A stretch of 64,000 bases of DNA from Prunella strophiata (Eukaryota; Chordata; Aves; Passeriformes; Prunellidae). The stretch covers positions 16,569,585 to 16,633,584 of the forward strand of contig JAZBQD010000019.1 of assembly GCA_036583965.1 (NCBI GenBank). The letters are read 5' to 3'. Shown piece by piece: positions 58,601-61,600 of the stretch (positions are counted from its first letter, which is position 1; each line of letters opens with the position of its first letter). The notes under the pieces are model-generated. The model saw only the letters and a list, made by a program, of their open reading frames with translations, was not told where the DNA came from and did not search any database. The position numbers and the translations under genes were made by a program.

Positions 58601-61600
58601 GATAAATTGAATGCCTTAAGAAGACATAAGGAAAAACTTGAAGAGAAGATAATGGACCAGTACAAGTTCTATGATCCTGCTCCAAAAAAGTAAGTTCCAC
58701 ATGGACTCAGTTCTGCTGTACAGATCAGTGAGGGCAAGAAAGGGTTTTCCATAACTGGGGATAACAGAAACTTCATCTGAAGTAGGGTGGTGTCATCTCC
58801 ACTTGTCTCTTCCCTCTCTCTCTGCAGGATATTCTCTGAAGCAGCAGCTTGTGTTAATGTAGAGTACAGGGCCTCATGTGGGGCCTTTGTATTAATACAA
58901 GAATCTGAAACTCCCAAAATAATTGGGAAAGAATGACTTTGACTAAGCAGTGCTAGGAGCTTTCAGAGCTGCTCTTTCAAAGCAAGGGATAACCAGTCTG
59001 TTGGAGAGAAAGCACTTAAAAAATATACTAAAAACAACAAAAAAGAGCCAAATTAATTCCATCCATACATAGTTCTGAATTATAACCTTAGCAAAGATGC
59101 TTCAAAGCAGCTTTCATTTTTCCTCCTCAGTCTGTTCCTGTAGTGGAGTGTCACACTGTAAGAATGTCTTATGTGGTCCATATGTGTAGTTTAGATTTCT
59201 AGCAGAGGGAACAGTTGTCTTTCTCACATTTCTCATGCTGAAGAAATATTTCTGTAAAATTCTGACTTCAGTAGAGAAATGGCTATCAAGTGCTGTGAAA
59301 TTCATGGTGCATTTTTTGAACCAGTTCATGACAGTAAACAAAAAATGTAGGATGGCTTGATGGCTTTAGCACAGCTGTAAACTTCTTTGGGGAGTATTTC
59401 TTGTGGCATTTTCTGAATTCCATTCACAAAACCTGCTTTATCAGGAAAAACCCCTGGATTGGAGCCAGAGCCTTAGTCAAATTCATCAAGCCAAAGAAGG
59501 AGAGCCCAAGGGAGCGGTTGAAACCAGCAGCAGAAAGCTCCACATGGTATTCTGACTCCCCAGAGATGGTAAACTCTCCATCTGCCTCCCAAAAATTGAA
59601 ACATCAACACGAGGCTCAGGATAGTACCTCTCAAGGGTCAAACCCTGTGGAAGAGAGAGAGAGCCCTGGGTGTTCTTCAAACAAAGGTAAGGAATGCCCA
59701 GCTGAAATTTTTTAAAAAAGTATTTAATATATAGGATATGTTAATGCCCAATCACATTATATTTTAAGTCTTTTTTTGGTGGTTTGTTAGTTGGTTTTGG
59801 GTTTGTTGGGTTGTTGGTTTTTTTTTTTTTTTTTTAAGTACAATAGAAGTTTTAGTATGCATAAAACCCTAAACTAGAAATTTGAGTAAACTCTAGAAGA
59901 TAATGGGTTTGGTTTTGTTTTAGTTTGCATTCTTCCTTTTATCTACTACTTCTCCCTTCAACTTCTGTTTGCCCAGGTGTATTGCATGTTACTGAATAAG
60001 TTGGTTCTAATACTTCATTTACTGGGGTTTTGCAGCAAAGCATTTAAAGCTGGATTATGGAATAGTGTGTGGTTCAGGCTCTTTGAGGGTATGAGCTGGC
60101 TGACAGCCACTGCCAGCAGGTGGTGCACGTGCAGAACAAATAACCCATTTATTGTCAATAACTGATTTATCATAATGTGGTGGTTTTGGAGGACAATACC
60201 ATGTTTTGATTTAGAATTAAACCAGGAATTTTTTCATGTGAAATGATGAAATTATTTTTTTTAACACTAAGGAATATGTAAGGAAGATGGAATAATTTTC
60301 TGTTAAGTTAGTTTATACAGTAAATCAGGTGTTCCTAATTATGGGAAATTTAAAAGAAAGTTTCTCAAAATAAGTACTCTTCATCCTTATTAAAGGTAAT
60401 ATATATGTCCCAAGCTCTGTTTATTCTATTGAGATAATTTCTGTCAGCTTCTATATATAGATTGTTATATTCCAGGAATACTTTCCAACAAGCAATTTTG
60501 AAATTGATATTTGATTAATGATTCCTGTCTTCCAGTTGTGGGGGGTGGGAAACAGAAGGGGAATAGCTGAGAAAAGAACTCTTGTTGTACCAACTACTGC
60601 AATTACTTGTCTGTCTGAAGGCTTTGTTTTGACTTGGGTGAAACCCTTTCTCTATTGTAATTCATTGAGGTTATTTATTCACTTAAAGTAAAAACAGATG
60701 TTTTATGGAATAAGATCATCCATATGATTCCAGGTGTTTAACATGCATCCTAAGTTCAGCTTGGGAAGTTGGGCTTGGGTTGCCACAGAACAAGGCCCTT
60801 GTAGAGTGCCAGAGACAACAAAAAGTCTCTGGGGCTTCATTCATTTTGATGTTACATGAATATACACTTGTGTGGAGATGAGGCTCACCAGTACTAAAGC
60901 CTAGAAGACATCTAGGAAATCTGGTTATCACTGAGTAACATGTATACCAATTTAATTTCATATTATAAAGCAAAAACATTTTGAATGATCTAACAGTAAT
61001 TGCTTAGTGGACTTGCTTAAATAGTGTGTGTATGTGTTAATCTGTGCCTTAATCTGAGTCAGATTAGGTATGTTTAGCTATGCATTCATCATAGTCCTCC
61101 ATTATAGGTGTTGGTCATTGTTCTAGCCTTTTCTGTTTTTACTGGTTGTGTAGTCTTTAATCTCTGTTAAGACATTTTAAGTTTTATTTATAAGGCTTTT
61201 TTTTTTTACTATTTTTTTTTTTCTTCTTCTTTTTGGGATACCTGGGTGATAACAATTTAGCTGCACAGCGCAAAAAGATTGCCTTTTTGAGAAGCAAAAG
61301 CAAGGATAAAGAAAAGTCTCCTAAGTCTCCATCGAATCATCAGTCTTTCTCTAATCGGCTCCGGTTCTGGTCTTCTTCCGACATCCCATCCTCTCCTAAT
61401 GAAATTCTTTCTTTCCCGGAACTGGGAGTTTTCTAACACCTTCTCTATAGCATTTATCTTCATTTATTTATGTCAAATATAAAAAAAAAAATTAAAAAAA
61501 AATCCCACATGCCATAAAAGAACACGCACATTGATAGAGACACTCAGCATGTCTATACAATACTGTAAATACAAGCAAAGATTAGTGAACATGGACTTAA

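Follow-up and report, generated by a model that had tools for sequence, protein, structure and literature searches.

A conserved alternative terminal exon in CCDC88C predicts a Daple isoform lacking the Gα-i-activating C terminus

Sequence comparison indicates that the bird CCDC88C gene, which encodes Daple, contains a real alternative last exon that is conserved from lungfish to mammals. Use of this exon would give a Daple that keeps the HOOK domain and the coiled coil but ends in a short tail of its own instead of the downstream part, which carries the GBA motif, the Frizzled-binding region and the YGCV C terminus. We consider it fairly probable that the exon serves as a conserved terminal-exon switch, which would uncouple a HOOK/coiled-coil form of Daple from Gα-i, Frizzled and YGCV-type Dishevelled binding.

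Results

An alternative exon in the intron after w22

CCDC88C lies on the plus strand of the window, a stretch of 64,000 nt from Prunella strophiata. Using splice-site scores, we placed 20 exons by hand (23591-59686), and with the alternative tail at its end the assembled protein comprises 1404 residues; the 5′ exons, including the start of the HOOK domain, lie outside this model. The last shared exon, w22, ends in a strong donor (AAAG/GTAAGG, weight-matrix score 11.3), and the intron that separates it from the next canonical exon measures 3916 nt (59687-63602), which matches the 3.9 kb of the original prediction. Within this intron, the alternative exon has its own 3′ splice site and joins w22 in frame, reading G/CT GCA CAG CGC at its start and GTT TTC TAA at its end, with the stop codon at 61434-61436. 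The coordinates originally proposed for this exon, its phase-1 compatibility with w22 and its tail of 58 residues were all exact (Table 1). Elsewhere in the gene, the exon at 27079-27237 ends in a GC-AG donor (ATG GAG/GCAAGT).

Table 1. Positions in the window of the alternative exon, its flanking elements and the neighboring exons of CCDC88C.
Feature	Position	Strand	Description
Last shared exon (w22)	59445..59686	+	Post-coiled-coil stretch and disordered linker; phase-1 end
Polypyrimidine tract of the alternative acceptor	61212..61234	+	Additional T run at 61197-61207
Spacer, 26 nt	61235..61260	+	Terminates in the TTTAG acceptor (ends 61260)
Alternative terminal coding exon	61261..61436	+	58-residue tail and TAA stop; from homologues and alignment
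Proposed 3′ UTR of the alternative transcript	61437..61724	+	Putative; from poly(A)-signal scan and conserved block
ATTAAA	61491..61496	+	A-rich surroundings; weak candidate for a poly(A) signal
Second conserved block	61623..61724	+	Peptides of the Sylvia, Gavia and Pelodiscus models match it, in differing frames
Canonical next exon	63603..63785	+	Used in full-length Daple; 11 residues noted at its start

The acceptor had been described as clean, but it is weak: its score in a simple weight matrix is -3.9, and 171 of the 247 AGs in 59690-63620 score equally well or better. The poor score arises because the T-rich tract stops 26 nt upstream of the exon. The TTTAG acceptor is nevertheless the first AG downstream of the tract; with no AG in between, it could be reached by scanning from a remote branch point. 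The spacer translates as YLGDNNL. A Pelodiscus model in which translation continues through the acceptor has the identical peptide, so the spacer is probably conserved at the DNA level.

By themselves, a T-tract, an AG and an open frame are no better than chance. Frames of at least 58 codons in the same phase follow 173 of 3950 plus-strand AGs outside the modeled exons, in a scan that ended at 61000 and omitted AGs close before exons, so that the candidate exon is not among the 3950. When the AG was the first after a tract, frames of this length occurred in 3 of 22 cases on the plus strand, one of which is the candidate, and in 0 of 8 on the minus strand. With the raw pattern at chance level, it is conservation in homologues that proves the exon.

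Homologues from lungfish to gorilla end in the same tail

Three protein searches were pooled. When the tail was searched at the end of the assembled 1404-residue protein, 33 of 37 candidates matched (E<=1); the lungfish tail matched 30 of 39 (E<=10), and a 360-residue query against shorter proteins matched 4 of 11 (E<=10). The pool contains 41 distinct entries, some of which are copies from one species. Thirty-seven of these proteins terminate with the tail, including entries named for Empidonax, Melopsittacus, turtles, Zootoca, Anolis and the lungfish Protopterus and, among mammals, for the marsupial Dromiciops, elephant, cattle, mustelids, Saimiri, Aotus and gorilla. Conservation of the frame in other birds and reptiles, whose absence the original prediction had named as part of its refutation, was found by protein search and extends to lungfish, a marsupial and placental mammals. 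Because hits required shared 5-residue words, the lack of any match named for an amphibian, ray-finned fish or shark is a weak negative, which suggests either that vertebrates do not all have the exon or that it was missed there. Within the limited reach of these searches no entry was named Girdin or CCDC88A (four matches are unnamed), and they consequently give no evidence for a paralogous exon in CCDC88A.

The other four proteins (P0002, P0003, P0010 and P0031) are longer Daple records that end in YGCV. These models, from Sylvia, Gavia, Pelodiscus and Pavo, hold the tail wholly or partly inside, as they would if the sequence were a cassette exon of full-length Daple. However, no two of them exit the tail at the same place, and the sequence after the exit corresponds, in three of the four, to the same DNA of the window read in differing frames, a pattern that looks like the stitching of gene models. 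We rejected the cassette reading as highly improbable because the models are mutually inconsistent; all four are likely gene-model errors in public annotation.

We aligned the window with 24 of the 41 proteins (25 rows). The 17 left out comprise 14 near relatives or copies of kept rows, including the deer model P0023, and three stitched models; Gavia, the remaining one, was kept with its tail end trimmed. Mean pairwise identity across the 25 rows is 0.76 over the 59 columns of the tail, in contrast to 0.52 over the 85 columns of the linker, and reaches 0.95 over the 34 columns that precede the linker. Sixteen tail columns are invariant. Between the window and lungfish, tail identity is 0.71 and linker identity 0.21, and relative to Empidonax, the nearest sequence, the window tail differs at 2 of 58 residues. 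The relation of tail to linker is as expected of a protein segment under constraint. The residues at the join are Lys-Ala in the 25 aligned rows, among them P0033 and four short 'lgn' contig proteins (see below), or Lys-Val in lungfish; in P0023, additional residues separate w22 from the tail. A retroposed fragment, as hinted by the T-rich and A-rich flanks, was rejected because lungfish, reptiles, birds and mammals all carry the tail at one and the same junction.

Contigs carrying the tail appear to be spliced

Most tail-bearing records look like automated predictions. Five tail-ending proteins come from a source labeled 'lgn', on contigs of 7606, 1596, 3288 (the longest of three), 1313 and 1427 nt, and are continuous across exon junctions into the tail. 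P0033 is complete, with 1531 residues from the 7606-nt contig. The bird-like P0038 (linker identity 0.75) runs from exon 15 to the tail within 1596 nt, a span that occupies 11 kb in the window, and P0040 and P0041 are confined to the last exons, which span 4.6 kb there. Contigs of these lengths are too short for introns, which suggests that spliced RNA very probably exists; retrocopies are a less likely source.

These contigs and the conservation of the tail protein across the lungfish-tetrapod split both argue against a chance open frame or an annotation artefact. Although a tract, an AG and an open frame are common on their own, the homologues already refute that reading, and its probability is negligible.

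In P0041, from the 1427-nt 'lgn' contig, an unrelated stretch precedes ISFLHQQLKG of the coiled coil, which is perhaps an alternative 5′ start or a retained intron.

The 3′ end of the alternative transcript

An ATTAAA had been noted after the stop codon; it is present, but its A-rich context makes it a weak signal, and no AATAAA occurs in 61437-63602. Because peptides match the second conserved block in differing frames, this block is probably conserved as DNA and not as protein, and it may belong to a longer 3′ UTR. A search of 59400-64000 against Rfam gave no matches at gathering scores.

Intronic transcript ends commonly reduce full-length output, and together with a conserved, probably non-coding block downstream of the stop this raises the possibility that the exon is mainly a switch at the level of transcription or RNA, whose intronic end would lower full-length Daple while the tail peptide would be of minor consequence. 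We regard this reading as improbable, since from lungfish to gorilla the tail is kept as protein, with its invariant columns.

The product keeps the N-terminal modules and lacks the GBA motif

The original prediction held that the product would retain the HOOK domain and coiled coil and lose the Gα-i-activating motif and the Dishevelled-binding C terminus, and both parts agree with our findings. Pfam detected HOOK_N in P0001 and P0033, and residues 2-112 are helical in an AlphaFold2 model of P0040. Among the 37 tail-ending proteins, none contains the GBA core as the exact string TLEEFLEE, and none ends in GCV. Absence of the GBA motif is expected for the tail isoform, and the gene is still CCDC88C. 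In human Daple, the GBA motif comprises residues 1668-1683 and Frizzled-7 binding requires residues 1881-2028, according to the available portions of the source (PMC4484057). Both positions lie downstream of the tail, which indicates that both are missing from the short isoform.

Sequence and structure of the tail

The tail has a basic start (14 residues noted) and a Ser-rich core (16 residues noted), followed by its C-terminal end. An RxRxxS sequence, which we take to be an Akt-type consensus, is present in 32 of the 37 tail-ending proteins. WSSSDIP is found in 33; the remaining four have FWSSSSIP, FWSSSDTP, FWPSSDIP and FWSSSDLP. The tail matched no solved structure (E<=10) and no Pfam family (E<=1). 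In the P0040 model, the alignment for which took in 23 of the 41 proteins, the tail lacks regular structure, with pLDDT of about 45-55 by block, and the linker is mostly at pLDDT 35-42.

Most of the 37 C-terminal ends are IGDF (28) or MGDF (3), and LGDF, LGVF, IGEF, LGDI, TGDL and SGDP occur once each. Gly at position -2 is kept in all 37, and Phe at position 0 in 34, the exceptions being Pro in Anolis, Leu in one protein and Ile in one. In the window the end (61422-61433) is LGVF, like that of Empidonax; Melopsittacus and the Gavia model have LGDF, and P0038 has LGDI.

Solved structures of the Dvl2 PDZ domain contain the ligands EIVLWSDIP (3cc0), STFSLWQDIP of WGEF (8yr7) and WKWYGWF (3cbx). 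Like the first two, the tail core FWSSSDIP has a hydrophobic residue and Trp followed by Asp-Ile-Pro, and like the third, the tail end has Gly at -2 and Phe at 0; position -1 differs, being mostly Asp in the tails and Val in the window. Published internal Dvl-PDZ motifs include W-[S/T]-D-X-P in the portions of PMC11076555 available. We rejected this strict motif for the tail, which has two extra residues between Trp and Asp. The two lizard ends, TGDL and SGDP, also speak against a strict PDZ ligand, and the Pro end of Anolis is unlike the usual one. The product had been predicted to be free of a PDZ ligand; this holds for the GCV end but is otherwise doubtful because the tails keep Gly at -2 and mostly Phe at 0. 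From these sequences, we neither accept the absence of a PDZ ligand in the tail nor claim one.

Relation to known isoforms

The exon was originally thought to be unrecognized, which is correct only in part: public annotations carry records named 'protein Daple isoform X2-X7' (e.g., X4 in Empidonax, X5 in Gorilla and X2 in Protopterus), which are the same kind of product with the same tail, whereas full-text searches of limited coverage turned up no published description of it. As far as could be seen, the tail isoform is annotated but undescribed; the records are computed, and we saw no function attached to them. Excluding four short 'lgn' proteins, the tail-ending entries have 1472-1559 residues.

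The human transcripts Daple-V2 to V7 likewise separate N- and C-terminal modules of the same gene (PMC6702192). Unlike the tail isoform, Daple-V2, V3 and V4 retain the C terminus with the GBA motif and PBM, and Daple-V5 to V7 are N-terminal pieces of 88-234 residues; the available text of that source describes none of V2-V7 as a protein of about 1535 residues with the tail (PMC6702192). In the paralogue CCDC88A, a splicing choice at the 3′ end also alters the C terminus and the PDZ ligand, giving GIV and GIV-L, as far as the accessible text of the source goes (PMC8042451). There, the intron after exon 31 is either spliced or not, and Gα-i binding is common to GIV and GIV-L (PMC8042451). In Daple, by contrast, the choice is made ahead of the GBA-coding part, with loss of the GBA motif.

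Discussion

We favor, with some confidence, a terminal-exon switch, in which the choice of exon would probably be regulated. Use of the alternative acceptor together with a poly(A) site farther downstream would terminate the transcript within the intron after w22. The predicted product is a Daple of about 1535 residues in which the HOOK domain and coiled coil precede a probably disordered tail of about 52-58 residues that ends mostly in [ILM]-G-D-F. Short Daple would be unable to use the known GBA motif, the Frizzled-binding region or the YGCV PDZ ligand, and it should keep the N-terminal functions while being uncoupled from Gα-i and from YGCV-type Dishevelled binding. Such functions would include association with dynein/dynactin and pericentriolar localization: in partial accounts of previous work, Daple 1-545 pulled down dynein/dynactin, although motility activation was not conclusive (PMC5533585), and the N-terminal coiled coil was important for pericentriolar localization (PMC6702192).

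The short isoform could instead act mainly as a dominant antagonist that uses the coiled coil to assemble with full-length Daple and prevents Gα-i activation and Dishevelled binding, as the original prediction had proposed in outline. Consistent with such a role, the HOOK domain and coiled coil are kept while the GBA motif and YGCV are gone, and in the available portions of one study a Daple mutant without GBA and PBM behaved like the GBA mutant, and the latter did not inhibit transformation (PMC4484057). Yet a pure antagonist would need no conserved tail of its own, and we view antagonism as a possible but less than probable main role. In the terminal-exon switch that we prefer, short Daple would be the natural counterpart of that engineered double mutant, which it resembles, with the differences that it also lacks the Frizzled-binding part and that it has its own tail, which would add contacts of its own.

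A more speculative version, which we think unlikely, is that the switch exchanges modules, such that the Gα-i/Frizzled/YGCV tail is replaced by a second, independent PDZ-type tail. Short Daple might then dock Dishevelled or another polarity PDZ protein and bring dynein rather than G-protein activation. An equally tentative assignment of the elements involved would be the [ILM]-G-D-F end, the Dishevelled-ligand-like FWSSSDIP core and the Akt-type RxRxxS site before this core. If the exchange of modules were true, a single splicing decision would commit Daple either to signaling or to transport.

The Daple work that we consulted centers on the C terminus, namely the GBA motif and the binding of Frizzled and Dishevelled. 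Retention since the lungfish-tetrapod split of a tail whose use removes this part suggests that Daple has a second, likewise conserved way of acting. Both products are affected by perturbations in w22 or upstream of it, whereas mutations or hairpins at the canonical 3′ end affect the long one alone; this difference could complicate the interpretation of knock-down and disease-variant data. With the exon defined, a G-protein-free role of HOOK/coiled-coil Daple becomes directly testable.
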